Shown: positions 25,533 through 63,855 of the stretch, one piece after another
How positions within the stretch are numbered: the stretch's first letter is position 1
How the letters are laid out: every line of letters begins with the position of its first letter
DNA from: Microbulbifer elongatus
GTDB lineage: Bacteria; Pseudomonadota; Gammaproteobacteria; Pseudomonadales; Cellvibrionaceae
Length of the DNA stretch: 64,000 nt
NCBI RefSeq assembly: GCF_021165935.1
Contig: NZ_CP088953.1
Coordinates: forward strand, 3,395,501-3,459,500
Direction: 5' to 3'
The notes under the pieces: model-generated
Database searches by the model: none
Told to the model about the DNA's origin: nothing
Seen by the model: only the letters and a program-made list of their open reading frames with translations
Position numbers and translations under genes: made by a program

Positions 25533-27456
25533 ATCGGGTAGGAGGCGCGGTCACCCGCGCCGTCCTCCCACACCACCGTACGTACGGATCCGTATACGGC
25601 GGTTCATGTTGTACTTAAGGGCCGGTGGTACTGAGCAACCACGGACATCAGACCAGCTCGAGCAAAGAAACGATTTGGCAGTGCATGTCGCAGGTGCATT
25701 GCGCCTGCATTCCACCAAGCTCCCCGGCCGTTCACTGAGCTTTTCCACGCACGCTCCACACTTAATCCCAACCGAACCAGCATCCGCATCCGGGTAGACG
25801 GACGTTTCCACTGACGCCATAGGATTTTGCGTATGTGGCGGCGTATCCAGATATCCAGTTCTCGCAAGATTCCTGTCACTCGCGTGTGGCGGTAGTAGTT
25901 CATCCAACCACGCAGCACTGGATTAAGGCTCTTCACCAGCTTCAGCAGGCTTAGCCCTCTTCCACGCCTGAACCGCTCTTTCAGGTTACCCTTGAGCCGC
26001 ACTATCGACTTCGGCGCAATCTTTAGCCGCGCGTTTGAGTTGCTCCCGTACACGGTGTACCCCAAGAAGGTACGTCGGCTCGGGCGCGCAACATCACTTT
26101 TGCTCGGGTTTATCTTGAGCTTCAGTCGGCGCGACAGAAAGCGACTGACAGACTCGAGCACCCTCTTACCTGCGCGTTCGCTTTTGACGTAGATATTGCA
26201 GTCATCAGCATAACGACAGAAGCGGTGCCCTCGGGCTTCCAGTTCCTGATCCAATTCATCCAGCAGGATATTGGATAGCAATGGAGAGAGAGGTCCGCCT
26301 TGAGGCATGCCCTGGTAGCGAGCGGTTTCCAGTCCGCCGATCATCATACCCGCCTCGAGATAACGGCGGATCAGTTTGAGCAGCCGCTTGTCCTTGATTC
26401 TCCGTGCCAGCCGCGACATCAAGATGTCGTGATTGACCCGGTCAAAGAACTTCTCGAGATCCAGATCCACGACCCAGCCACAGCCTGCGGCAATGTGTTT
26501 GCGCGCTTGCCTGACGGCGTCTCCGGCGCTGCGCCCCGGGCGATAGCCGTAGCTGTGCTCGGAGAACACTGGATCGTAGAGAGGGTTGAGCACTTGATGT
26601 ATGGCCTGCTGGATCAGCCGATCCATTACCGTGGGGATGCCCAGGGTTCTGGTTCCGCCATCGGGCTTGGGGATATCCACCGCCCTGATGGTCTGCGGCC
26701 GATAATCACCTGCCAATAAAGCTTCTCTGGTCTTTGGCCAATGTGTCTGTAGCTGAGCTTTCAGCTTGTCGACGGTTACACCGTCTACACCCGGAGCGCC
26801 TTTGTTGCGCATGACCCGTTTGTAGGCGGCGTGCATGTTGGCTCGCACCACCACGTCCGTCATCAGGTCACCGGTCTCTTCTGGAAACGGGTCTTCATCC
26901 ACCGTGACGTCTGGCACCACCGACGGCTTGCCCATCGGGTACCACCCTCTGGGATAGATGTCGGCAACAAGCTGTTCTTGTTTTGCGGTGTTTGCGTCCG
27001 TCATCGAGAACTCGGGGTTTCCAATTTCCAACATGTTCCGCCCTTCAACCTGCGGTGACAGATCTACTATGGCTTCTGCTGACTTCTGTCGTCCCATCCC
27101 GATACCTCACAGCATCGGTAGCCATTGGCAGGACGGCAGACCTCCCAGGGTAATGCGCGTGACCTTCACACTTATACCCGCCGCATTTACGTCCGCAGTG
27201 TTCGTGCAAGTATTGGGCTTTGAAGAATTGTGCCTTCTTACCCGCTGCGACCGCCTAATATGCGATTTCTGTTCGTCGGGTCAGTGTTTTGCCTTCGGCT
27301 TCCTTCAGATTCCACCTCGCGGTGGACACCCTTGCCGTTCAGCTAATCGTTCCCCTTGCCGGGCCGATAGTGGACTTTCACCACCAAGTCATCCGGCCAC
27401 CACCACGCGTACCGGAACAGCGCCAGTCACGGCGCTACGCGCCATGCCTGGCGCAC
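25533..27456 (-). mobile_element. Group II intron (class C type) with maturase gene
   Basis: On the minus strand the 5' end is GTGCGCCAGGCATGG (from 27456). The 3' part has a domain V hairpin (GTATACGGATCCGTACGTAC, ~25570-25600), then domain VI (GGCGCGG GTGA CCGCGCC with CCTAC branch-site context), ending near CCCGAT at 25533. Domains I-IV around 27100-27456 are non-coding. The element lies two bases behind the T-run of the sulfatase terminator, the habitual target of group IIC introns. The encoded maturase lacks an endonuclease domain, which also fits class C. Confidence 0.85.
25604..27097 (-). CDS. ltrA: Group II intron reverse transcriptase/maturase
   Basis: 497 residues. Reverse transcriptase blocks are clear: [64 protein letters not shown] and the catalytic [13 protein letters not shown] maturase (X) domain follows ([17 protein letters not shown]). 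No HNH endonuclease domain is present. The N-terminal ~70 residues are less conserved, and the Met at residue 22 ([11 protein letters not shown]) may be the real start. The product splices the intron and drives its mobility. Confidence 0.93.
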
Positions 27457-33652: not shown

Positions 33653-35533
33653 TTAACCTGCGGCTGCAACCGGGCTCTGCCCTGAGCCCTGTTCAGGCTT
33701 TTTTATCTGTTCGCCCATTTCTGCATCCGGGTCATCCCGCATCAGGCGATACCAATTCTTCCAGAGCAGATAGCTGGTCAATGCAATGACACACATGGCA
33801 ATGGAGAATTCGGTCCAGCGCTGAATCACCATAAAGATGGGTGCTGCGGTAAGCGCGGTGTGCCAGACGAGACCAATCGCACAGTTGAAGAGGTCACGTT
33901 TACAATCGGTATTGCGCTTCAGCTCTGGATGCTCCACCAACAGGGCCTGGTGAATGGGCTTCCAGAATCCCCAGGGGCGCGTTTTGAAATAGAAGGTTTT
34001 GAGCGTTTCCATATCGTCTGCCTCGGTGAGCAGTGAGCCGGCGACACTCGCGGTGAGGCACAGTGCAAACATACCCGGGAACGCATACAACGGAGAGATA
34101 TCGGTAAACATCATCGGAATCGCGGCCAACAGCCCCGCAAGCATGCCGTAGAAATAACCAAAGCCATTCATACGCCACCAGTACCACTTGAGGATATTGG
34201 CTGCGGTGTAGCCACCGTACAGTGCGCTCACGATCCAGAGAATGATGGAATTGAGTGATGGTGCGAAAAGGCCGATACCAGTACCGAGAATCACAAAGGT
34301 GATTGAGACCAGGTAGCTCATACGCACATAGGTTTTCTCATCCGCATCCTTGTTGAAGTAGCGCTTGTAGATATCGTTGACCACATACGCCGGCGCCGAG
34401 TTGGTGGTAGCAGCAAAGGTCGACATAAAGGTCGCCAGCAATCCGGCGACTACCAGCCCGAGCAACCCGGCGGGGACATAGTTGGCGAGGGCAAACGGCA
34501 GAATCTGTTCAAAGTCCACACCCTCGCCCATCGCACGCAGGTCGTCGACAAAAAACACCAGGGCAAGAATTGTCAGACCGGTGATCATCATATAGCGAGG
34601 GAACAACAGCACCAGATTGACCAGCCAGCTCATCTTTGCCGCCTCTACCGGAGTACGCGCAGAAAGAATACGCTGCATGTCGTAGTTGGGTGCCGGGCCC
34701 GCCATGCTCTGAAGAATACCTTTCAGCAACACCAGCATGAAAAACACGGAGAACAGGGACCAGCCGTCGTCGACAATACGCTGATTGGCGCTATCGAGAA
34801 TACCGCTCCAGTCGAGATCAAGGGTGTGCCCGAAGCCCATACTGAACCAGCCCTCAGGAACAGCCGCGCGCAACATGTCTGGCGAGACCTGGTACATGGC
34901 AATCACACCAATCGCGATACAGGCCACTGTCATAATGACAAACTGCATGACCTCGGTGAGTACCACACCGAACATCCCACCTTTCACCACATACACGGCA
35001 GTGATCGCGGTGAGAATCAGGCCGTAAAAAATCTCATTGTTGTGAGGATCTGCCGAGAGCTGCCAGGGCATAAACGCGGCCGCGAACTTACCGATTCCCA
35101 CAAAGCCGTAGGCGAGATAGCCAAGTACCACCAATAACGCAAAACCGACAATGACCAGATGGGAAAGCTCCGCACCGCGGCCCTCTCCAAAACGGAAACG
35201 AATCCACGCGGCACCGGTCATCACGCCCGAGCGACGCAACCAGATCGACAGGAAAACCATCAGGAAAATCTGATTGAAGGCCGGCCAAAGCCAGGGAATA
35301 TAGATACTTTTCAGACCATAGATAAACAGCAGGTACACCATCCACATGGTGCCGGAAATATCGAATTGCCCGGATGCATTCGACAAGCCCAGGTAGTACC
35401 AGGGCAGCTTGTTGCCACCGAGAAAGTAACTCTGAATATTCTTCGATGCCTTGCGGGATACCCAGAACCCGATAAACAGCGACGCAAATAAATACAGTCC
35501 GATGACCATTAGGTCTATTGGTGCAAGGCTCAT
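33653..35533 (-). CDS. Sodium:solute symporter (probable mannobiose transporter)
   Basis: About 626 residues from the ATG at 35533 (MSLAPIDLMVIGLYLFASLF); a TTG at 35539 is possible. It is an SSS-family inner-membrane protein with about 13-14 hydrophobic segments and the family block FGEGRGAELSHLVIVGFALL. The C-terminal half has an added soluble stretch (TEADDMETLKTFYFKTRPWG) and further helices. First gene of the operon, 89 bases before GH130. In analogous loci such symporters bring manno-disaccharides into the cytoplasm. Confidence 0.88.
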   Translation of the reverse strand: MSLAPIDLMVIGLYLFASLFIGFWVSRKASKNIQSYFLGGNKLPWYYLGLSNASGQFDISGTMWMVYLLFIYGLKSIYIPWLWPAFNQIFLMVFLSIWLRRSGVMTGAAWIRFRFGEGRGAELSHLVIVGFALLVVLGYLAYGFVGIGKFAAAFMPWQLSADPHNNEIFYGLILTAITAVYVVKGGMFGVVLTEVMQFVIMTVACIAIGVIAMYQVSPDMLRAAVPEGWFSMGFGHTLDLDWSGILDSANQRIVDDGWSLFSVFFMLVLLKGILQSMAGPAPNYDMQRILSARTPVEAAKMSWLVNLVLLFPRYMMITGLTILALVFFVDDLRAMGEGVDFEQILPFALANYVPAGLLGLVVAGLLATFMSTFAATTNSAPAYVVNDIYKRYFNKDADEKTYVRMSYLVSITFVILGTGIGLFAPSLNSIILWIVSALYGGYTAANILKWYWWRMNGFGYFYGMLAGLLAAIPMMFTDISPLYAFPGMFALCLTASVAGSLLTEADDMETLKTFYFKTRPWGFWKPIHQALLVEHPELKRNTDCKRDLFNCAIGLVWHTALTAAPIFMVIQRWTEFSIAMCVIALTSYLLWKNWYRLMRDDPDAEMGEQIKKPEQGSGQSPVAAAG

Positions 35534-42182: not shown

Positions 42183-43604
42183 TAATGCTGTTCACTTAAG
42201 CATTGCAGCCTAAGGTGGGGCCCCGGAAAATCCGGTTTCCAGATCAGGAAACCGGATTTTTTTGTGTCTCTTCAGCAGTCTCTCTTCGATATTGATGCCC
42301 TCCAGTCCTTCTGTGACCTGAGTACCTTCACCCAGAACATTCCCGTTGAATGGGTGGATTCCGCTCTGCAGTTATCCTCGCAAGCCACTATTCGCCGCCG
42401 TCGACTTCCCGCCGATCAGGTACTCTGGCTCGTGCTGGGCATGGCCCTGTTCAGGAATGAACCGGTCTCAGAAGTTGCCCGCAGGCTCAATATCTGTGCT
42501 CAGGGGCTCGCGAACGATAGCCTGTTGGCCCCAAGCGGGGTATCAAAGGCGCGACAGCGTCTTGGTGCTAACCCCGTTCAGTGGCTATTTCAACGTACCG
42601 GGGTGCACTGGGGACATGAGCGTTACCCCGAAGATGAATGGCGAGGATTGCAAGTTCTCGCTGTCGATGGCGCGCTGTTGCGCACTCAAGATACTCCTGA
42701 GCTGCGAGATCATTTTGGCTCCGGTAACACGAGCACAAACCGGCAAACTCCGTACCCTCTTATGCGCCTGGTTGCTCTAATGAACGTACGTTCACATGTA
42801 CTTCTGAATGCAGAGCTAAGCCCTTACCGACGCAGCGAAATACGCCTGGCCGATGAGTTTATGAATCAGGTGCCGGAAGCCTCCGTAACCCTGTTTGATA
42901 AGGGTTTTTGGAGTGCAGACCTTTTGCTGCGGTGGGCGGATCAGAACACGCAACGCCACTGGCTGATCCCCGAACGCAAAGGCCTGGTCAGTGAGACAGT
43001 GGAGGTCTACAACAAAAATGATCGACTACTGCGAATGAAGGTCTCCCCCCAGGCTCGGAAGCGCAATCCGGCCCTTCCCGAGTACTGGGAAGTTCGAGCA
43101 GTGAGCTATAAGCATAATGGCAAAAACAAAACGGTATTTACCTCGCTACCAGCAGATACTTACGGCACTAAAGCCGTCGCGAAGCTCTACCAAGAGCGCT
43201 GGGAAATCGAAATCGGCTTCCGTGACATCAAAAGTTCCATGCAGCACAACGCCGTCACCCTACGTAGCAAGACCGTGGCACTGGTTTATCAGGAAGTGTG
43301 GGGGCTACTGTTGGCGTACAACGTGATACGTCGAGAGGCAAGCCAGGCAGCGGTCGCTCACGGGGGAAACCCAGCCAGGATACGCTTTAAGTTCGCATGC
43401 CAGTATATTGCTGCGCAGCTGATTGTCATGGCCGCGGCTCAGCCATTATCAAGGACTGGAGCGCGCTTATCGGAGCTTAGGGCGGGGATTGGGAACCTGT
43501 TTTTAGAGGACCGTCCTCGGCCTTCTAGGCCGAGGACGGTAAAGATCAGCAAAACCCGCTATCCGGTGAATCGTCGTGCTGCTCCGCTTAAGTGAACAGC
43601 ATTA
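42183..43604 (+). mobile_element. IS4-family insertion sequence in a terminator hairpin
   Basis: 1422 bp bounded by perfect 18-bp inverted repeats TAATGCTGTTCACTTAAG / CTTAAGTGAACAGCATTA. Flanking 11-bp direct repeats CGGTAAAACCG (42172-42182 and 43605-43615) are the target duplication, a length normal for IS4. Removing the element restores GCCCGGT AAAA CCGGGC, the hairpin that would terminate the TonB receptor gene on the minus strand. Confidence 0.95.
42264..43595 (+). CDS. IS4-family transposase
   Basis: 443 residues from a GTG. DDE transposase: VLAVDGALLRTQDTPELRDH (first Asp), TLFDKGFWSADLLLRWA (second Asp) and the IS4 signature YQERWEIEIGFRDIKSSM (Y-2-R-3-E-6-K pattern). The N-terminal domain (IPVEWVDSALQ, RRRRLPADQVLWLVLGMALF) is typical of IS4 transposases. 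It appears intact and fills the element between its inverted repeats. Confidence 0.95.
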   Translation: MSLQQSLFDIDALQSFCDLSTFTQNIPVEWVDSALQLSSQATIRRRRLPADQVLWLVLGMALFRNEPVSEVARRLNICAQGLANDSLLAPSGVSKARQRLGANPVQWLFQRTGVHWGHERYPEDEWRGLQVLAVDGALLRTQDTPELRDHFGSGNTSTNRQTPYPLMRLVALMNVRSHVLLNAELSPYRRSEIRLADEFMNQVPEASVTLFDKGFWSADLLLRWADQNTQRHWLIPERKGLVSETVEVYNKNDRLLRMKVSPQARKRNPALPEYWEVRAVSYKHNGKNKTVFTSLPADTYGTKAVAKLYQERWEIEIGFRDIKSSMQHNAVTLRSKTVALVYQEVWGLLLAYNVIRREASQAAVAHGGNPARIRFKFACQYIAAQLIVMAAAQPLSRTGARLSELRAGIGNLFLEDRPRPSRPRTVKISKTRYPVNRRAAPLK

Positions 43605-53343: not shown

Positions 53344-53436
53344 TTAGATATGACGAGCTGCGACTACACCGACAATTTAGTTAAATAGAGGTGTGTGCAA
53401 AGGTGGGTTAGGTTCCCTCAGAGCCATAGTCACTTG
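53344..53436 (-). other. Distal end of the cassette array, degenerate attC
   Basis: The last cassette gene stops in CAGCTAAC, like an attC R'' box, but no matching R' partner (TAACG on the plus strand) or long inverted repeat is seen up to 53344. The terminal attC seems truncated, and the chromosome resumes here. Confidence 0.5.
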
Positions 53437-53877
53437 TTAGCTGCTTTGCTCGTGCTCGAACCAAATTTTATGCCTGCGGCTTAGCAAGCCAGAGCAGTGG
53501 ATGCATTTTTTAACAGGTAAGGCCATTGCGTTACTGTGTACCGCATGCGGATCTTCGCAGAATAGATAGAGATCCCATACTCCAGGCGTGCCAGATATTC
53601 CGCCCCTTTTATCACAGTGCTCGCAAATGACATCCTCAATGTGAACTCTATACCTTTCACCAGATACCCTTACGAAGCAGATTAACTGATAGCGCCCTCT
53701 CGCTCCCATTAGAGCGATTTCAACTCCAGTATATTCACGATACTCCTGTAGCGCCTGTGCAAGAATGTCATAGTGGAAAAGCGAAAATCCTTCAAACGAT
53801 TTTGTTTCCAGAATACTTGAAACGTCATCAGGACTTAAGAATATTAGATTCTGCCCATCTAAATTGACCTTATCCAC
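53437..53877 (-). CDS. Cassette-encoded protein with two CxxC pairs (unknown)
   Basis: 146 residues, not recognised. The N-terminal half (FLSPDDVSSILETKSFEGFS, YREYTGVEIALMGARGR) is soluble; the C-terminal half has ICEHCDKRGG and KKCIHCSGLLSRRHK, a likely zinc-binding pair. The stop TAA lies inside an R''-like CAGCTAAC, the usual stop position of integron cassette genes. Upstream (right) is MITE copy 1 in the neighbouring attC. Confidence 0.7.
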   Translation of the reverse strand: MDKVNLDGQNLIFLSPDDVSSILETKSFEGFSLFHYDILAQALQEYREYTGVEIALMGARGRYQLICFVRVSGERYRVHIEDVICEHCDKRGGISGTPGVWDLYLFCEDPHAVHSNAMALPVKKCIHCSGLLSRRHKIWFEHEQSS

Positions 53878-53904
53878 AGATCTATTCTCTTACGGCAGCT
53901 AACG

Positions 53905-54070
53905 AGGCTGTAGAAAAACTCCGGCCTTTACTTGCTGCTCATATTTCACCCAGAAAATCGCGTCTCTACGTGAATTCTGGATCTACTTTACATGGCGAAA
54001 AGCATTTCAGGGCACTCTCCGCACGAAAAATTTATCTACTAGAGAGAGGCTCGAGTTTTTCTACAGCCTG
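53905..54070 (+). mobile_element. MITE copy 1 in an attC R' box
   Basis: 166 bp with terminal inverted repeats AGGCTGTAGAAAAACTC / GAGTTTTTCTACAGCCT. Flanked by AACG on both sides (53901-53904, 54071-54074), the duplicated attC core. It differs from copies 2 and 3 at two bases seen by eye. It has no transposase gene. Confidence 0.9.
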
Positions 54071-54186
54071 AACGCCCAGCGCAGGCGCAGCCAGCGCGGA
54101 GCAGCTTTTGTGTTAATGTTTGAGCGCCAGCGAGTAACACAAAAGGTGCGTAGTGTTGGCTGTCGCTCTGCCGCTGATTGTTAACC
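54071..54186 (-). other. attC-A (R' end interrupted by MITE 1)
   Basis: From AACGCCCAGCGCAGGCGCAG to GATTGTTAACC. Internal inverted repeat includes CTTTTGTGTTA ... TAACACAAAAGG. Nearly identical to attC-G at 59672-59791. Confidence 0.85.
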
Positions 54187-54204
54187 TACCCGGATTCATA
54201 TACT

Positions 54205-55265
54205 AACCGCGACAAATTACCTAAAACTGGAGGTGATCTGCGATACTAGGGGCATTTTACTCCCGCCAAGAAGTGAATTGCACCAATGAAGTATCAACAG
54301 ATCACCAGAGAAGAAAGATACACGATTGCGGCCTACCGTGCACAAGGTCTTTCCGTCACCGATATCGCCGAGTTGACTGGGCGCCACAGGAGTACCCTCT
54401 ATAGGGAGTTCCAACGTAACAGCTGCCACCGAACCGATGGCGGTTATAGACCGAGTAAGGCCGACAGTCGTACTCGAGGGCGACGCAGACGATCACGTCG
54501 TAATAGGCACTATTCTGAACGCCACTTTAAGCTTGTGCGAGCGTTACTTCGGAAGAAGTACAGCCCAGAGCAAATAGTCGGTTACATACGCAGACATAAA
54601 TTGATGAAACGCCGGTTAAGCCACGAAACTATCTACCAGTATATCTGGAGAAATAAGAAGAATGGCGGCAACTTATGGACGCATTTACGCCAAGCCTCAA
54701 AACAGCGTCGAAAGCGCTACAAAGCCTATGACAGCAGGGGGAGACTTGCGGATAAGCGGCACATCACAGACCGACCTAAAAGTGTAGAGACCAGGCGTTA
54801 CAAGGGCCATTGGGAAATTGACACTGTTCACGGCCGGGGCAGCAACCACTGCATTGTTACATTGCTGGAGCGTAAAACGGGGTTTGTGATGATTGGGAAG
54901 CTCAAAAATAAATCAACCTATGAGCTGAACAAGAAAACAGTACGGTTAATTAATCGTGATCCGAGAAATATTAAAACTATAACCGCTGACAATGGTACTG
55001 AATTCCACCAATATAAGAAGATTGAGGACTGCTGTGCAGTAAAATTCTATTTTGCCACCCCGTACCACTCCTGGGAGCGAGGAAGCAATGAGCATGTCAA
55101 CGGGTTAATCAGGCAATACCTTCCGAAGGATCACAGCATGGAAGACATTACACAGCAGCAATGTGACGCTATTGCAATGAAATTAAATAGCCGCCCCAGA
55201 AAGCGGTTCGGCTACAAAACCCCAGAAGAGATGTACTATGGAAGATAACAGTTATTGTCGCGGTT
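54205..55265 (+). mobile_element. IS30-family insertion sequence inside a cassette
   Basis: About 1061 bp with 11-bp terminal inverted repeats AACCGCGACAA (54205-54215) and TTGTCGCGGTT (55255-55265). It lies between the gene at 55286 and its attC (attC-A), so it is inside the cassette. No clear target duplication is visible. Confidence 0.85.
54286..55248 (+). CDS. IS30-family transposase
   Basis: 320 residues. N-terminal HTH (MKYQQITREERYTIAAYRAQ, DIAELTGRHRSTLYREFQRN) and C-terminal DDE domain: HWEIDTVHGRGSNHCIVTLL (first Asp), ITADNGTEFHQYKKIE (second Asp) and SWERGSNEHVNGLIRQYLP (Glu). Length and motifs fit an intact IS30 transposase. It is on the opposite strand to the cassette genes. 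Confidence 0.95.
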   Translation: MKYQQITREERYTIAAYRAQGLSVTDIAELTGRHRSTLYREFQRNSCHRTDGGYRPSKADSRTRGRRRRSRRNRHYSERHFKLVRALLRKKYSPEQIVGYIRRHKLMKRRLSHETIYQYIWRNKKNGGNLWTHLRQASKQRRKRYKAYDSRGRLADKRHITDRPKSVETRRYKGHWEIDTVHGRGSNHCIVTLLERKTGFVMIGKLKNKSTYELNKKTVRLINRDPRNIKTITADNGTEFHQYKKIEDCCAVKFYFATPYHSWERGSNEHVNGLIRQYLPKDHSMEDITQQQCDAIAMKLNSRPRKRFGYKTPEEMYYGR

Positions 55266-55285
55266 CAAACTTGATACTAGGCAAC

Positions 55286-56236
55286 TTACTTGAATAGCGC
55301 CTTGAGGTCACGCTCTATATCCTTGCTTTCATCAATATTTATATACTTTATAGGTGTATCTTCATGCTGAGAGTTGAACTCTAGCAATTTTTTATGTGCA
55401 CTTGACGTAACATTGGCGTTACTAATAAGCACAACGGGCATTTTCATTTCTATAGCTACATGAATAAGTTTATTTATTACCCGCAGAGGCATAACCTCCG
55501 TTTCCGTATACTTCACCTCAACAGCAGTGTCTCTCCCCCCTTCCATTTTTATGATGAAATCTGCTGGCGTAGATGGAGGACAATATTCAACGTGATTGGG
55601 GCCCAAAGCAGATTTGAGCGTCTCGTAAATCTTACGCTCCATTATCATGCTCGTGTGGACTCTCCGTTTTAGTGACTCTTGTCGATTTTCAATTGTTTCT
55701 TCAATTTTAAACTCCTCTAGTTTTAGGTTTCTTGACCAGAGACTAGTTAAACCAAAGTAAGCAGCGATTGAACCTAAAATAGCCGAAACCCATGAAAGAA
55801 AATCAGCATATCGCGACAACGATTTTTCTTCATCAACTGGTTCTTCTAATGTAGGCTTTGGCAGCGACAGCCTTACAGAATCTAGCTTTTCAATTAGCGC
55901 CTTACGCTGCTCCAGGGGAATAAATTTATTTTCAAGAAATCGTTCCTGAACTTGAATCAGTAATTCCTCACTGGTAAAAGGGTATTTCATATTTCCAGAT
56001 AGCTCTTTTCCTCTTATAAGAGTGCGGATGTCCCCCGAGTCAATCTCATGGTTGTTGTAGACAAGCTCCTGAATCGACTCAATTAATGCCTCATGAGTAC
56101 TCTCAATTTTTTTTATCTCAATCTCTTCAACATAGTTTGGGACATAAAAGACCGCGAAGTAGACTGTTAACCCAATACCTACCATTGAGAATACATTCGA
56201 CAAATTATCTTTCAGTGCAATGAAAAATTCTTTCAC
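55286..56236 (-). CDS. Cassette-encoded membrane protein with PD-(D/E)XK nuclease-like domain
   Basis: 316 residues. A first membrane helix (VFSMVGIGLTVYFAVFYVPN), a helical middle region, a second membrane segment (FLSWVSAILGSIAAYFGLTS) and a C-terminal soluble domain (~200-316). There PADFIIKMEGGRDTAVEVKY fits the D...E-x-K core of restriction-endonuclease-like folds, followed by VVLISNANVTSSAHKKLLEF. Possibly a membrane-tethered nuclease or defence effector; this is inference. Its attC was separated from it by the IS30 element. Confidence 0.7.
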   Translation of the reverse strand: MKEFFIALKDNLSNVFSMVGIGLTVYFAVFYVPNYVEEIEIKKIESTHEALIESIQELVYNNHEIDSGDIRTLIRGKELSGNMKYPFTSEELLIQVQERFLENKFIPLEQRKALIEKLDSVRLSLPKPTLEEPVDEEKSLSRYADFLSWVSAILGSIAAYFGLTSLWSRNLKLEEFKIEETIENRQESLKRRVHTSMIMERKIYETLKSALGPNHVEYCPPSTPADFIIKMEGGRDTAVEVKYTETEVMPLRVINKLIHVAIEMKMPVVLISNANVTSSAHKKLLEFNSQHEDTPIKYINIDESKDIERDLKALFK

Positions 56237-56251
56237 CTTATCTCCGATCTA

Positions 56252-56506
56252 TCAGGTGTCTTTTCGCATAACGCCGCCAACAGGGGCGACCAACGTTGTG
56301 CGCCTTTTGCGCAATAATGGGAGCGCAGCGACCGCGCAAAAGGTGCACAGCGTTGGGCGTCCCGCGGAGGGCCGAAGGCCCGGAGCGAACTGCTTGGCCT
56401 TGTTATTGTTGACGCGCTTTAGACAGAAAATTACTACAGCGCACAAAACTATCAGCCGGAAAAAACAAACATACTTTGAGTGGCACTGTTGCATGCAACG
56501 CGCCAC
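56252..56506 (-). CDS. Possible small membrane protein of a short cassette (weak)
   Basis: The ~310-base cassette between attC-B and MITE 2 holds no strong gene. The best frame starts at 56506, has a hydrophobic stretch (YVCFFRLIVLCAVVIFCLK), and then runs through attC-B, so the last ~45 residues are attC sequence. The cassette may be non-coding. Confidence 0.25.
   Translation of the reverse strand: MARCMQQCHSKYVCFFRLIVLCAVVIFCLKRVNNNKAKQFAPGLRPSAGRPTLCTFCAVAALPLLRKRRTTLVAPVGGVMRKDT
56267..56408 (-). other. attC-B
   Basis: From CATAACGCCGCCAACAGGGG to CTTGTTATTG. Long imperfect palindrome: CCAACGTTGTGCGCCTTTTG ... CAAAAGGTGCACAGCGTTGG. Very close to attC-M at the right edge. Confidence 0.9.
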
Positions 56507-56725
56507 CCTCTTCTGATCTTGTTATTAGCCAGACCAGAACGCTCCACCATACTACCCCCGCCGCCTTCATCAAACTTTTAGAATGGATACCACTGAAGAC
56601 ACTTAAAATCGTCTCGTAAATCCATTGCTTGAGATCCAGCCTTTACGGAGCTGGATATTTTTATTTTGCCTGCCAAGCACACCGAAATTTATTTGGCGGC
56701 GGCTCTGCGGGCCAGAACAATAACG

Positions 56726-56891
56726 AGGCTGTAGAAAAACTCCGGCCTTTACTTACTGCTCATATTTCACCCAGAAAATCGCGTCTCTTCGTGAATTCTG
56801 GATCTACTTTACATGGCGAAAAGCATTTCAGGGCACTCTCCGCACGAAAAATTTATCTACTAGAGAGAGGCTCGAGTTTTTCTACAGCCTG
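56726..56891 (+). mobile_element. MITE copy 2 in an attC R' box
   Basis: 166 bp, same ends and orientation as copy 1, AACG at 56722-56725 and 56892-56895. By eye identical to copy 3. Confidence 0.92.
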
Positions 56892-56959
56892 AACGCCCGC
56901 AGCATGGGAAAAATTGGAGCGCAGCGGAAATTTTGTCCCAGTGCCTGCGATTGTTAGGC
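56892..56959 (-). other. attC-C (short, R' interrupted by MITE 2)
   Basis: From AACGCCCGCAGCATGGG to GATTGTTAGGC. Inverted repeat GGGAAAAATT ... AATTTTGTCCC. The stop codon of the 56954 gene lies in its R'' box. Confidence 0.85.
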
Positions 56960-57409
56960 ATTTGCACTCCGGATTAACTCAGAAATAGCTTTATCAATTT
57001 CAGGAGCCAATTTTTGCTCAGTATCAAGATGGGGCTTGCACTTCTCCATGCTTTCTCCATCATGGCCACCCTTACTACGGTGGATATCCGCAACCCAGAA
57101 ACATGCTTCGTAATACTTAGATATTTTTTCAGCCAGGCTTTTAGAAAGATATAACTTCGCATTTCTTGATGGGTAATAGAACTTGGAGACTTCAGAGAGC
57201 TCCGCGAACTCAGCTTTCTGCTGCATGTGCATCTTTAGCTCAAAGAACGCATCATAGATTTCCTTCTTGTGGCCAGATAGTGAGATTTCATTTGCTCTCT
57301 TTGCCTCTCGCCAAGCCCATCGTGCATACAAAGCTGACAAGCATGCCACAAGAGCAGCCAAAATAGCGATGATGTCGGATAAATCCATGTTGATTTGGCA
57401 CTCACTCAT
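56954..57409 (-). CDS. Cassette-encoded membrane-anchored protein (unknown)
   Basis: 151 residues. One N-terminal membrane segment (IIAILAALVACLSALYARWA) followed by a charged helical domain (KKEIYDAFFELKMHMQQKAE, KLYLSKSLAEKISKYYEACF). Not recognised. The start is 11 bases from attC-D and the stop TAA is in attC-C, the canonical cassette arrangement. The form resembles small single-helix proteins often found in defence or toxin cassettes, but no function can be assigned. Confidence 0.7.
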   Translation of the reverse strand: MSECQINMDLSDIIAILAALVACLSALYARWAWREAKRANEISLSGHKKEIYDAFFELKMHMQQKAEFAELSEVSKFYYPSRNAKLYLSKSLAEKISKYYEACFWVADIHRSKGGHDGESMEKCKPHLDTEQKLAPEIDKAISELIRSANA

Positions 57410-57419
57410 GATTTTGGTT

Positions 57420-57536
57420 GCCTAACGCCTTGCTCAGCGGCGGCTTACTTTGTGTGTATTTTGCGCAAGAATAGGAGCGCAGCGACTGCGCAAAAGACGC
57501 ATAAAGTAAGACGTCAGCTGCAGCAAATTGTTAAGT
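57420..57536 (-). other. attC-D
   Basis: GCCTAACG (57420) to GTTAAGT (57536), 117 bp. Inverted repeats CTTACTTTGTGTG ... ATAAAGTAAG and GCAGCTGACG-type ends. Confidence 0.92.
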
Positions 57537-58049
57537 TTTTCCATGGATTTCGTCTCGCATTGCTATGATCAAATCCCTGAAATTATTGCCGTCGTTATCC
57601 CACCAGACCTTTCTAGCTGATAGGTTATTGACTTCCGCACTGACATTTTTGCCAAAATATATATTAATCAACTGCATCGTTGATGAAAAATCTGCATTCA
57701 AATCTGACCGTTTTTCGCTTACTGCAAGCGCACTCTTTGTTCCATCAGGTTCTACGCAATCAGCTATTCCAGATGCCTTACATATTTTCAAGTCTGAAGC
57801 CAAGTCTGCTTGAAGATTTAGATAGTGTTGATAACCCTCATATTTTGAAGTCAAATTTGCCAGTTTTGAAACTCTTTCCAAGAGCTCGATTTTCTTTGTA
57901 AAAAGAATCCTTTCTCGTTCGACTTTTACCTGTCTTTCAAATATTTTTTCACTAGTCCAAGACGGGATTAACGCTCCGGCTAGAGCTCCCGAGAACCCAA
58001 GGATTGCTGAAAGAGCTGGCACAATGATATTTACTAAAATTCTACTCAT
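57531..58049 (-). CDS. Cassette-encoded membrane protein (unknown)
   Basis: 172 residues from MSRILVNIIVPALSAILGFS at 58049; an upstream Met at 58076 lies within attC-E and is rejected. The N-terminal segment is hydrophobic and glycine/alanine rich, followed by a coiled-coil-like part (SEKIFERQVKVERERILFTK, KIELLERVSKLANLTSKYEG). Function unknown. Stop TAA is in attC-D. Confidence 0.7.
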   Translation of the reverse strand: MSRILVNIIVPALSAILGFSGALAGALIPSWTSEKIFERQVKVERERILFTKKIELLERVSKLANLTSKYEGYQHYLNLQADLASDLKICKASGIADCVEPDGTKSALAVSEKRSDLNADFSSTMQLINIYFGKNVSAEVNNLSARKVWWDNDGNNFRDLIIAMRDEIHGKT

Positions 58050-58061
58050 GTGATCTACCAA

Positions 58062-58133
58062 ACTTAACGCTCGCATTTGCGGCTGGTTTGGAGCGCAGCG
58101 GAAAACCAGTCCGGCAACATGCGCTTGTTAAGC
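58062..58133 (-). other. attC-E (short)
   Basis: ACTTAACG (58062) to GTTAAGC (58133), 72 bp, with CTGGTTTGGAGC ... GAAAACCAG pairing. Contains the stop codon of the 58128 gene. Confidence 0.9.
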
Positions 58134-59225
58134 AATTTTCGTGAAAGAGCGTTCAATTTCATAGCCAATCTCTGAGCCCCGCTCACCAAACATGCTGACA
58201 TATTTCTTTAACTCAGCGGATCCTGCACCACCAAAAACTAGTTTATTAAGTGTAGCTCTTACACCGAATTGATTTTTTAAATTCTCCAGGGGATTGCCCT
58301 GCGTGGCAATCTTGAAGATTCCCATTCCTGCTTCCATTGTTACAGGTCTGTCTTTAGATCCAAATCCAATCTTTTTATCTATATATTGGTTTACTGAGTC
58401 AAGTTGCTTTCTGTACTCTAAAAGGCTCTTTGTATCGTCTGCACTCATTGCATTCTGGAACATTTTCAACCAATCACGAAGTGATTGAAAATCATCTCTC
58501 ATTTGTAATGCAGTACTAATCAATTGATTAGCAGAATTCGCTTCTTGAATGACTCTAATAGGTAATGCTGGAATATTAACGTAAGCAGAAAATAGTGAAT
58601 CATTACCATAAATCTTCTTTGTTACTTTTACTTTCTGGTCATCTAAAAACGTAGTGAGTTGATGAAGAGCATCGGCTGCAGGCAGCATGAACCCAGAATT
58701 CACAAATAGTCTTTTCCGTAAAGGGTGGGGTGTGTAGCCTTTTTCATAAACAAAGCCTCTAGCGCACATACCAGCGCCGCCCCATAAAGTTGCAGATAGA
58801 AGTGGATCTGGTGTTTGTTTGTTAGCATTCCAGCCATCGACATTCTTCTGATGAGAAACCCGCAAAGATTCCGTGGAGCAAATATGGTTTACGATCGATT
58901 CACGGGGGCCTGCAATTTTTTCAGGTTCAGATAAAAACGGATATGGTCGTACAACACCAAAACACTTTGCTTCTAGTATTGGGCTATGCACTTGCTCCCA
59001 TGCGTGCGTAAATTTTTCGTCTACCAATATTTCATCGCGGAGGATCAAATCAGAAGTGAAATCAAAGAGAGCCTCTGTTTGAATAATGGCGCTCGATATG
59101 GGCTGATAAGAATGCTCTTCGCCTTTTAAAACAATTTCACCAGCTACGTCACTCTCAAGCCCCCTAACAAATAGACTTGTTATGTCCTGTAACGACCAGT
59201 TGTCCGAGACTACGCCTTGAGCCAT
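58128..59225 (-). CDS. Large cassette-encoded protein of unknown function
   Basis: 365 residues, the largest cassette product in the window and soluble. No family is recognised. Visible features: WSLQDITSLFVRGLESDVAG, a WGGAGMCARGFVYEKGY segment, a helical stretch (SLLEYRKQLDSVNQYIDKKI) and a Gly-rich GFGSKDRPVTMEAGMGIFKI. Start is 14 bases from attC-F; stop lies in attC-E. The size and full opening suggest a functional gene recently captured by the integron. Confidence 0.7.
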   Translation of the reverse strand: MAQGVVSDNWSLQDITSLFVRGLESDVAGEIVLKGEEHSYQPISSAIIQTEALFDFTSDLILRDEILVDEKFTHAWEQVHSPILEAKCFGVVRPYPFLSEPEKIAGPRESIVNHICSTESLRVSHQKNVDGWNANKQTPDPLLSATLWGGAGMCARGFVYEKGYTPHPLRKRLFVNSGFMLPAADALHQLTTFLDDQKVKVTKKIYGNDSLFSAYVNIPALPIRVIQEANSANQLISTALQMRDDFQSLRDWLKMFQNAMSADDTKSLLEYRKQLDSVNQYIDKKIGFGSKDRPVTMEAGMGIFKIATQGNPLENLKNQFGVRATLNKLVFGGAGSAELKKYVSMFGERGSEIGYEIERSFTKIA

Positions 59226-59238
59226 TGTCTGTCCTTTT

Positions 59239-59382
59239 GCTTAACGCCCGCAGCAGGGGTGACCAATACTATGCACATTTTGTGCGAAACTGGGAGCGCA
59301 GCGACCCGCACAAAATGTGCATAGTGTTGGGCGTCCCGCGGAGGCCCGAAGGGCCGTAGCATACTGCCTGCGTTTGTTAAGG
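59239..59382 (-). other. attC-F
   Basis: GCTTAACG (59239) to GTTAAGG (59382), 144 bp. Extended palindrome CCAATACTATGCACATTTTG ... CAAAATGTGCATAGTGTTGG. Close to attC-K. Confidence 0.92.
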
Positions 59383-59383
59383 T

Positions 59384-59665
59384 TTAGTTGCTCCACTGCA
59401 ATGGCGAGCGAGCTATATGTACTGCCAAAATAGAGGGCGCAATGGGAAAAACTAGCCATAAAAACGCATTATTTTCAGAATAATATGCGATACCAACTAC
59501 TGCCCAGAATGGAACCAGCAGGTACAGAAAGAAGTAAAAACTGTACTTTATTGGTATGTAGCATTTAGCACCGCAGTTCCCGCAAAGCTTGGGAGACAAC
59601 CTGGTTGCCCAAAGCTTACGAAAAAAACTAAATTCCGCCTTCTTACATTTTGGGCACTGAAACAT
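59384..59665 (-). CDS. Cassette-encoded zinc-ribbon membrane protein
   Basis: 93 residues. N-terminal MFQCPKCKKAEFSFFRKLWA and LCGNCGAKCYIPIKYSF give two CxxC pairs (a zinc ribbon), followed by two membrane helices (FYFFLYLLVPFWAVVGIAYY, NAFLWLVFPIAPSILAVHIA). Similar small proteins are annotated as hypothetical; function unknown. Start lies just right of the R' of attC-G; stop is two bases from attC-F. Confidence 0.75.
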   Translation of the reverse strand: MFQCPKCKKAEFSFFRKLWATRLSPKLCGNCGAKCYIPIKYSFYFFLYLLVPFWAVVGIAYYSENNAFLWLVFPIAPSILAVHIARSPLQWSN

Positions 59666-59671
59666 CCGAAA

Positions 59672-59791
59672 CCTTAACGCCCAGCGCAGGCGCAGCCAGC
59701 GCGGAGCGCCTTTTGTGTTAATGTTTGAGCGCCAGCGAGTAACACAAAAAGTGCGTAGCGTTGGCTGTCGCTCTGCCGCTGATTGTTAGCT
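59672..59791 (-). other. attC-G
   Basis: CCTTAACG (59672) to GTTAGCT (59791), 120 bp; almost the same sequence as attC-A. Confidence 0.92.
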
Positions 59792-59944
59792 GGCGGGCTC
59801 ACAATGCACCTCAAACTGGCATTTTACCCCGGGCTGTCACTACCAAAATTTTTAATAGTTTAGAATGTGAAGTCCACTACAGAATTCCACCGCCTTCCAT
59901 TTAAAATTTTAAGTGTATCTACGGCTAAATTTTACAACGTGAAA

Positions 59945-60133
59945 TTATTCAAACCATTCATTTTTGTGGCTTGGCTGCACCCTTAATTGTTCTTCACTCT
60001 TTTTGTCAGAGATCTTAACACCGGCAGTAACTGCCGCTCCTTTAGCAAGAAAGGAAGCCAGTTTACCCATTTTCTTCGCCGCTCCTTTCGTTGCCGCATA
60101 GGCCTTTTCCGCGTCTTTCTTAATCTCGGACAT
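59945..60133 (-). CDS. Small Ala/Lys-rich cassette protein
   Basis: 62 residues: MSEIKKDAEKAYAATKGAAK then KMGKLASFLAKGAAVTAGVK, an amphipathic, Lys/Ala/Gly-rich helix. No family assigned. About 150 bases lie between its stop and attC-G, more than for its neighbours. The first part of the cassette (59792-59944) is otherwise empty. Confidence 0.55.
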   Translation of the reverse strand: MSEIKKDAEKAYAATKGAAKKMGKLASFLAKGAAVTAGVKISDKKSEEQLRVQPSHKNEWFE

Positions 60134-60180
60134 AAATATAACCTTAAATTTTTTGCGCCGTATTGCTTGCCAACGTAGAC

Positions 60181-60325
60181 AGCTAACGCCGCGAGCAGCG
60201 GCAGCTTACTTTGTGCGCTTTATTGCGCGAAAATGGGAGCGTAGCGACCGCGCAATAAAGTGGACAAAGTAAGCTGTCCGGTGGAGGCCCGCAGGGCCGG
60301 AACGAACTGCCTCGCCTTGTTAATG
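60181..60325 (-). other. attC-H
   Basis: AGCTAACG (60181) to GTTAATG (60325), 145 bp. Palindrome CTTACTTTGTGCGCTTTATT ... AATAAAGTGGACAAAGTAAG. Confidence 0.92.
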
Positions 60326-60345
60326 TTTGATGACCTGAAAGCAAT

Positions 60346-60543
60346 TTAATACTGAACAAGACCACCAAACTCAACGCCACAAAATTGCCAACATACTGCG
60401 AGCGGCACGATTGGCTGTACCATACCACGCTTTCCCTGGAGCGGCTTAAACGCCCAAAAGGAACACCCCTCCCGACTTCTTCCGCCGCCAGCGACAACCT
60501 TAACGAAGGGAAGCCTCTGAAGGCATTTCATATCAACCGTCAA
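60346..60543 (-). CDS. Possible 65-residue cassette protein (weak)
   Basis: The cassette between attC-H and MITE 3 has one minus-strand frame in the expected place and direction (MTVDMKCLQRLPFVKVVAGG to GLVQY, stop 21 bases from attC-H). No Shine-Dalgarno or family is evident; codon use is unremarkable. It could be non-coding. Confidence 0.3.
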   Translation of the reverse strand: MTVDMKCLQRLPFVKVVAGGGRSREGCSFWAFKPLQGKRGMVQPIVPLAVCWQFCGVEFGGLVQY

Positions 60544-60646
60544 TCCCTGCTAGCGATACTGCTTCTACAACGCTAGAGGCCGCCGAATCGCTCATCAAGT
60601 ACACTGCAATTTTCAGGCGGCGGCATGATGAACCTGAACATTAACG

Positions 60647-60812
60647 AGGCTGTAGAAAAACTCCGGCCTTTACTTACTGCTCATATTTCACCCAGAAAAT
60701 CGCGTCTCTTCGTGAATTCTGGATCTACTTTACATGGCGAAAAGCATTTCAGGGCACTCTCCGCACGAAAAATTTATCTACTAGAGAGAGGCTCGAGTTT
60801 TTCTACAGCCTG
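60647..60812 (+). mobile_element. MITE copy 3 in an attC R' box
   Basis: 166 bp, same ends, orientation and AACG duplication (60643-60646 and 60813-60816) as copies 1 and 2. Confidence 0.92.
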
Positions 60813-60952
60813 AACGCCCACAGCAGGGGCGGCTTAGTTTATGCGCGTTTTGCGCGAAAATGGGAGCAAAGCGACCGCGCAAAACGTGCATAAGGTAAGA
60901 CGTCCCGCGGAGGCCCGTAGGGCCGGAGCTTTACTGCCTGTGATTGTTAAGT
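60813..60952 (-). other. attC-I (R' interrupted by MITE 3)
   Basis: From AACGCCCACAGCAGGGGCGG to GTTAAGT (60952). Palindrome CTTAGTTTATGCGCGTTTTG ... CAAAACGTGCATAAGGTAAG. Confidence 0.9.
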
Positions 60953-62082: not shown

Positions 62083-62220
62083 CATAACGCCGCCGGCAGG
62101 GGCGGCTTACCTTATGCGCGTTTTGCGCGAAAATAGGAGCGTAGCGACCCGCGCAGGACGCGTATAAGGTAAGCCGTCCCACGGAGGGCCGAAGGCCCGG
62201 AGTATTTTGCCCGGCATTGT
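62083..62220 (-). other. attC-L, main part (R'' end split off by IS110 element)
   Basis: From CATAACGCCGCCGGCAGGGG to GGCATTGT. The R'' box lacks its last bases; joining 62220 to TAGCATC at 63404 restores GTTAGCA and the stop codon position of the 63403 gene. The IS therefore interrupts the R'' core. Confidence 0.8.
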
Positions 62221-62250
62221 ATGGTCAAATTCCCCAAATATTCGATAAAG

Positions 62251-63387
<1,137 letters not shown>

Positions 63388-63402
63388 CATCACAGTCGCT
63401 TG

Positions 63403-63855
63403 TTAGCATCTTCTTGGCACTAGAGCCTGACGAATACTGCGACGCTGCTCTGAGTTAAATGTAAAGTACGGGAACTCGATTTTACGACCAGACAGCCCGA
63501 GAATCACGAAATTTATTGATGGAAATATTTTCAAATTTACAGATTTTATATCTGACCGATCTAAATCGGTGACATCGCCAAAATCAGTGTACCTCACCTT
63601 ATCCTGGGTAATTTCGAGAGAGTGCTCGACAACCTTATCACCACCAGTATTAAATAAAACTAGCCAAGTAAATATGGCCATTTGAAATACGAAGAATCCG
63701 AAAGTATAAATTTTTAAATAAATTTCGTTAATCGGGAAATCCAAAAAAATTGAACCTGAGTAGCACGTAACCAGTAAAACTATCGCATAGATTGACGATT
63801 GAATTATCCGAGAAACAGCATCTTGCGTTCTTGACTGAAAAAATACTTTATTCAT
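63403..63855 (-). CDS. Cassette-encoded membrane protein (unknown)
   Basis: 150 residues: two membrane helices (IIQSSIYAIVLLVTCYSGSI, FGFFVFQMAIFTWLVLF) followed by a beta-rich C-terminal domain (LEITQDKVRYTDFGDVTDLD, INFVILGLSGRKIEFPYFTF) resembling PH-like membrane-proximal domains. Function unknown. The stop TAA lies in the R'' half of attC-L, now separated from the rest of that site by the IS110 element. Confidence 0.7.
   Translation of the reverse strand: MNKVFFQSRTQDAVSRIIQSSIYAIVLLVTCYSGSIFLDFPINEIYLKIYTFGFFVFQMAIFTWLVLFNTGGDKVVEHSLEITQDKVRYTDFGDVTDLDRSDIKSVNLKIFPSINFVILGLSGRKIEFPYFTFNSEQRRSIRQALVPRRC

Follow-up and report, generated by a model that had tools for sequence, protein, structure and literature searches.

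A 167-bp transposable element and a resident IS1182-family insertion sequence of Microbulbifer share a preference for integron attC sites

Integrons are a major platform on which bacteria shuffle genes. As far as the parts of the sources covered here describe them, one end of the attC site is targeted by insertion sequences (ISs) of the IS1111-attC group, such as ISKpn4 and ISPst6, whose enzyme is of the DEDD type and guided by a seekRNA and whose inverted repeats are subterminal (PMC11187229, PMC12444791), and attC and similar inverted repeats are preferred by the group IIC-attC introns, which are mobile retroelements (PMC8876359, PMC7923331). A survey of cassettes from plant microbiomes, in which IS5-family transposases were frequent (49% in the phyllosphere set), names in the parts covered the IS1111 group alone as attC-targeting (PMC11089894). 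IS1272 of Staphylococcus, a member of the IS1182 family, is reported to target and delete stem-loops and to leave no target duplication (PMC5678879, PMC4923244). Here we describe a 167-bp, non-coding miniature inverted-repeat transposable element (MITE) present in three copies in a 64,000-nucleotide stretch of the Microbulbifer elongatus chromosome (NZ_CP088953.1, positions 3,395,501 to 3,459,500; the window refers to this whole stretch).

We put at roughly 0.86 the probability that this MITE is moved by an IS1182-family IS belonging to a clade that inserts at attC ends, in the R' core and in a fixed orientation, with duplication of GTT. Like the IS1111-attC group, the IS in question targets one end of attC, but it has a DDE transposase and terminal inverted repeats, duplicates GTT and is accompanied by a MITE; an IS1111/IS110-type identity is ruled out by matches to IS1182 and DDE models and domains instead. 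The preference for attC is shared with the group IIC-attC introns, whereas the MITE coordinates give no Rfam intron match at E≤1, and a group II intron was rejected. In being short, non-autonomous and linked to an integron the MITE resembles the integron mobilization unit and other integron-associated MITEs (PMC13367494, PMC8618304); the integron mobilization unit, however, is described as Tn3-derived and as flanking and mobilising segments, and the parts of its description that were covered do not mention attC targeting (PMC13367494). IS1272 has a transposase of the same family and also terminal inverted repeats; it is reported to replace the stem-loop, whereas the IS described here keeps attC and duplicates GTT. 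There may have been a shift from hairpin replacement to insertion beside the base of a single hairpin type, which we find an attractive idea. A literature search returned no attC-targeting IS1182 group by name, with ISfinder and most subscription papers outside its scope, so an earlier record is possible.

A repeat search of the window returns the MITE as a single family of three copies with perfect 17-bp terminal inverted repeats, located where the initial annotation had placed them and sharing, as it had said, the same junctions and orientation. The window holds six exact matches to the 17-bp end, where 100 shuffled sequences average 0.16, and one stray match with three mismatches at 35019. 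On the + strand all junctions read AACG-AGGCTG...CAGCCT-GAACG, in one orientation (3/3), and on the cassette (minus) strand each copy reads ...GGCGTT-C-AGGCTGTAGAAAAACTC...GAGTTTTTCTACAGCCT-C-GTTA... The insertion point lies at the 3' end of attC, beside L'-spacer-RGC, in the R' core (the labels R', R'', L' and L'', and their consensus, are those that we take to apply to these attC sites). Copy 1 (53904-54070, minus strand) has its left end, which faces attC, at 54070; the duplicated target is found at 53901-53903 on the downstream side (AAC on the + strand, GTT on the cassette strand) and at 54071-54073 on the attC side, where it is the R' core triplet. The attC upstream of copy 1 (54071-54182, minus strand) forms a hairpin of length 112 between R'' AAC at 54180-54182 and R' GTT at 54071-54073, and an unoccupied attC at 59672-59788 is 96% identical to it over 117 nt. 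Downstream of copy 1, nine nucleotides of the R'' of the following cassette (53436-53444, minus strand) are complementary to the first bases of that cassette (53895-53903), so that the natural start of the cassette lies directly at the MITE. Copy 2 (56725-56891, minus strand, 167 bp) has its downstream duplication at 56722-56724 and an upstream attC at 56892-56955 (minus strand) that includes the R' triplet at 56892-56894 and has a hairpin length of 64. Copy 3 (60646-60812, minus strand, 167 bp) has its downstream duplication at 60643-60645, and its upstream attC (60813-60948, minus strand) includes the R' triplet at 60813-60815, with R'' at a distance of 134. Over the 165-bp core, copy 3 matches copy 2 at every position and copy 1 at 98.8% identity.

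The interior of the MITE, although non-coding, is conserved among divergent copies (for example CAGAATTCACG), and this holds also for a relative from another genus. When 25 MITEs were folded together they gave an end-to-end stem and no clear conserved RNA structure in the interior, where 5/33 pairs showed a double change and the covariation term was -0.86. A promoter scan found no promoter-like sites inside the three window copies, and the MITE had no match in the plasmid collection. One further MITE copy (L063, contig G016:C74, 669-911) carries an apparent internal duplication, in that it gives two partial matches that overlap in head-to-tail order.

The initial annotation gave the element as 166 bp flanked by a 4-bp AACG duplication, and both figures have to be revised. 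At the left terminus, 43/45 MITEs and 49/51 Microbulbifer IS rows (rows not fully freed of duplicates) have C. At 61/65 other loci, drawn from a scan in which each GTDB species was represented by a single genome (the best 80 of 283 related loci), this base is G, symmetrical with the right end; one of these 65 loci, which is also one of the 55 scan loci in the attC tests below, is titled Microbulbifer (L177). The symmetry of the ends in other genera shows that the base separating GTT from AGGCTG is part of the element rather than of the target; with one such base on each side the element measures 167 bp, and the terminal C common to the MITE and the IS of Microbulbifer marks a shared derived end. 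The target duplication is the 3-bp GTT (AAC on the + strand), which is the crossover triplet of the integron integrase. This can be read from a filled and an empty site: one MITE that lies off attC (L047, in genome G033) has an empty counterpart in genome G022, the joined flanks aligning over 157/157 positions at 96% identity. The empty site reads GACCGATGTT|ACCCGC and the filled site GACCGATGTT[C...C]GTTACCCGC, so that the insertion has added the element and exactly GTT. The base preceding GTT there is T, which rules out a duplication of CGTT at this site; on this pair and the terminal-base comparison the 4-bp reading was dropped. At L221, ATT stands at both sides of the element, as fits a target duplication but would not fit an element that brings its own GTT, at this one site, which has no empty counterpart. 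A search of seven genomes for an empty site matching one off-attC copy of genome G676 found none.

The host chromosome (4,196,952 bp in one contig) holds five copies of the MITE and four of what we regard as its parent IS. A search of the genome with the end sequence gave four further single ends, which proved to be the left ends of a 1,783-bp IS with a matching right end and the same setting as the MITE, GCGTT-C-[IS]-C-GTTA; the full-length transposase with the same ends that the initial annotation had proposed to look for is thus present on the same chromosome. The terminal inverted repeats of the IS flank a single gene, the first 18 nt of the IS are identical to those of the MITE, and the two elements have the same target duplication and the same target preference. 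The gene encodes a DDE transposase of 518 aa that passes the NCBIfam IS1182 model NF033551 narrowly (272.2 bits against a cut-off of 270) and matches the Pfam families DDE_Tnp_1_6, DUF772 and DDE_Tnp_1; some of its homologues are labelled 'ISMac1 family' by a source, and no solved structure matches its profile at E≤1. Among 72,556 plasmid records, 2 contain a related transposase (44-45% identity), one locus (L245) with typical ends at a GCGTT/CGTTA site and the other (L246) yielding no reliable element ends. The cassette array of the window runs leftwards from an intI gene 2.4 kb past the window end, and this is the sole intI of the genome at E≤1e-60. Copies of the MITE and IS lie in this array and at 0.54, 1.36, 2.08 and 3.58 Mb; given the single intI, the latter copies are in attC-bearing places without a nearby intI. 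All nine copies sit at attC ends in one orientation, each passing at least one of the attC tests described below. Three of the five MITEs are identical and the remaining two differ from those at two positions, in keeping with the recent movement that had been proposed from the window copies alone.

The initial annotation had read from three insertions that attC is chosen as a target, at the crossover triplet, and a far larger set supports this. We asked (a) whether the sequence preceding GTT folds as R''...R', (b) whether positions -20 to -5 score on an L'/R' matrix trained on 48 scan loci, none of them titled Microbulbifer, and (c) whether the sequence right of the element (GTTANNNN) begins the next cassette, being complementary to that cassette's own R''. 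The tests were combined because hairpin scores alone lack sensitivity and miss several of the array's unoccupied attCs; truncated MITEs, left flanks shorter than 60 nt and repeated flanks were excluded, MITE alignments of fewer than 60 bases were dropped, and sites with no right GTT or with less than 400 nt downstream were excluded from test (c). Tests (a) or (b) were passed by 124/142 distinct sites, those outside the genus lying mostly in Gammaproteobacteria (38/45 MITE, 39/42 genus IS and 47/55 scan loci), against 13/327 CGTT sites taken as background from positions 1-52000 of the window, and adding test (c) brought the total to 126/142 (39 MITE, 40 genus IS and 47 scan loci). Test (b) is partly circular for the 55 of the 142 sites that are scan loci, where leave-one-out gave 38/48 and test (a) alone 24/55. 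Test (c) alone was passed by 20/39 MITE, 25/46 genus IS and 27/61 scan loci, against 3.0%, 3.1% and 2.2%, respectively, in a control with swapped cassette starts; the right junctions coincide with natural cassette starts. Insertion thus shows a strong, though not absolute, preference for attC.

If the target were instead a short linear sequence such as CGTTA, with the apparent attC preference left behind by selective loss of copies elsewhere, one could account for off-attC copies at ACGTTA and TGTTA, and for a left CGTT at 38/45 MITE, 42/43 genus IS and 52/55 scan loci, in which the C is nearly invariant. We consider this improbable, since the first 52 kb of the window contain 60 CGTTA, a density that, if it holds, predicts thousands per genome, and yet 9/9 of the chromosome's own copies are at attC. 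Conservation extends, moreover, to the L' box at a distance of 11 to 18 nt: a logo of 51 scan loci shows L' and R' boxes at fixed spacing (C at -17 in 92%, T at -13 in 82%, A at -11 in 66%, G at -5 in 92% and C at -4 in 100%) and GTTA right of the element, the loci having been preselected for a left GTT, with L181, L221 and L229 skipped. Selective loss alone is in any case a weak explanation because intergenic MITEs would often be neutral.

It is scarcely more plausible, and if anything slightly less so, that the element is itself an integron cassette without an open reading frame, its TT...G inserted by the integrase at G|TT and its inverted ends incidental. Such cassettes are known (PMC8876359, in the parts covered), the position and fixed orientation fit exactly, and an integrase crossover at G|TT would produce the same junctions as a GTT duplication, those of the L047 empty-site pair included. 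However, a cassette should carry its own 3' attC, and this is not what is found at the one right end of an element that was scored, that of the IS preceding the MITE at L033, which gives -21.8 on the L'/R' matrix (99th percentile of the background, 3.99) and fails all of the attC tests. In the alignment of 25 MITEs the 17-bp ends are conserved best, an IS of 1.78 kb that shares these ends and encodes a DDE transposase of its own shows the same behaviour, and at L221, a single site, ATT stands on both sides where an integrase crossover would give GTT on the right.

Finally, spread of the copies as one cassette-MITE unit, shuffled by the integron or duplicated, is refuted as the main route and may at most contribute: copies 2 and 3 are identical, and two insertions of genome G033 (L060 and L062), whose attCs are unrelated, have downstream sequences that agree at 75% over 126 nt, but this is one of only two pairs with related downstream starts among 80 distinct insertions with both flanks (INDEPENDENCE), the other pairing an IS of G033 with window MITE copy 1, and the copies of the host genome are dispersed over the chromosome. 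The duplication that the initial annotation had named as a competing account is thereby excluded, and the copies are independent insertions.

The transposon reading, with attC as the preferred target, is joined by a wide distribution. Relatives of the MITE occur in 10/48 Microbulbifer genomes (in G039 as a piece of only 52 bp) and in 0/48 genomes of other genera by the same search; the IS occurs in 18/48 Microbulbifer genomes at E≤1e-60, and six genomes have both. The exact CGTTC|CGTTA is found at 33/47 distinct MITE places of the genus, and the 45 genus IS places comprise 30 CGTTC|CGTTA, 2 CGTTG|CGTTA and 13 with the left side only (12 CGTTC, 1 TGTTC). Junctions were inspected at 71 scan loci; the nine left out (L157-L164 and L166) belong to two strains that the genus set includes. 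The elements of other genera, among them Marinobacter, Halomonas, Gilvimarinus, Marinimicrobium, Zhongshania, Spongiibacter, Pseudohongiella and Oceanospirillum, are mostly 1.75-1.85 kb long, and nearly all read GCGTT|GAGGCTGTAG...CTACAGCCTC|GTTA. The exact end pattern, sought in 390 genomes of the order, gave two MITE-like elements outside Microbulbifer: one at an attC (L240, G409; 174 bp between the outer letters of the terminal inverted repeats) and one at a degenerate site (L239, G198; 165 bp between the same letters), both with the same ends, the latter with the interior motif AGAATTCACG as in the MITE.

Targeting of attC marks one clade within the IS1182 family, more distant groups inserting elsewhere. 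IS1182 matches at E≤1e-60 were present in 24/274 Gammaproteobacterial genomes, and among 28 loci examined (the own-genome loci L263 and L274 being excluded) eight have ends of the GTT[GAGGCTG...]GTT type and are 40-63% identical to the query, whereas the other 20 are 21-27% identical, 16 of these lying, by eye, at GGCC/GGTC-like or CTAG sites. When 67 rows were placed in a tree, a long branch with SH-aLRT support of 100 set the 46 GTT elements, together with the plasmid locus L246, apart from the rest.

Several observations weigh against our interpretation. Sixteen of the 142 sites fail every test, and L047 and L221 are clear insertions off attC, as are L277 and L278, which are two of the five that G676 carries and lie outside the 142 count. 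Among the failing sites, L070, L067 and L044 look degenerate, L181 and L229 probably have mis-set left ends, at L033 the MITE is placed after an IS end, and L151 and L204 are attC-like by eye; about a tenth of sites are off attC or unrecognisable. Copies outside attC, which in large numbers would have refuted the claim on the initial annotation's own terms, therefore do exist, but only as a minority. The tree is a quick one that drew long-branch warnings from the program, and a 3-bp GTT differs from the 4-bp palindrome at other IS1182 elements. That the MITE is moved in trans by the resident IS1182-family IS is something that we infer, and three of the ten MITE genomes (G001, G017 and G022) have no IS at E≤1e-60, while G039 has the MITE fragment only and no IS.

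How might such an insertion proceed? The transposase would bind the ends of the IS or MITE and capture attC through L' and R', and the element would then be joined within the R' core with its left end facing attC, repair duplicating GTT. The transposase may read either the folded single-stranded attC or linear L' and R' in double-stranded DNA, and a fold is compatible with the data; we note that attC is an imperfect inverted repeat and that the duplicated GTT is non-palindromic. The upstream attC would retain R'', L'', L' and GTT, losing just the outer letters of R', which in arrays derive from the next cassette anyway, and to judge from these retained parts it is probably left usable. The initial annotation had expected R' to be broken and the neighbouring cassette frozen, which is not supported: GTT stands on both sides, both arms of attC are kept, and an attC can be hit more than once (at L281, behind a hairpin that resembles attC, an IS and GTT run into the beginning of a further copy, and at L033 an IS end is followed by a MITE). 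The element would thereby become the 5' part, or leader, of the downstream cassette and travel with it. More tentatively, and with the odds somewhat against it, the DDE transposases of this clade could recognise folded single-stranded attC much as the integrase does, insert at its foot and regenerate the core triplet, the IS and MITE being passengers and potential 5' regulatory leaders of cassettes; this would be an IS lineage specialised on integrons as a renewable, non-essential landing platform. A second group of attC-hunting ISs, with its own MITE and a DDE enzyme unrelated to the RNA-guided IS1111 type, would mean that mobile DNA of different kinds has converged on attC. It would also offer a natural system in which to ask how a DDE transposase picks a structured site and fixes its orientation, and the keeping of the core triplet predicts cassettes with a mobile 5' leader.

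Other mobile elements lie in the window. An element at 62215-63405 encodes an IS110-family transposase (62425-63387; NF033542, 224.6 bits against a cut-off of 140) and by eye splits an attC after the end of R'', so that this array has an IS of another kind within an attC as well. An IS30-family transposase (54286-55248; NF033563), also in the array, adjoins MITE copy 1. An IS4-family transposase is encoded at 42264-43595 (NF033592), and outside the array, at 25533-27326, there is a group II intron with a reverse transcriptase/maturase (RF02001, RF01998 and RF00029; TIGR04416).

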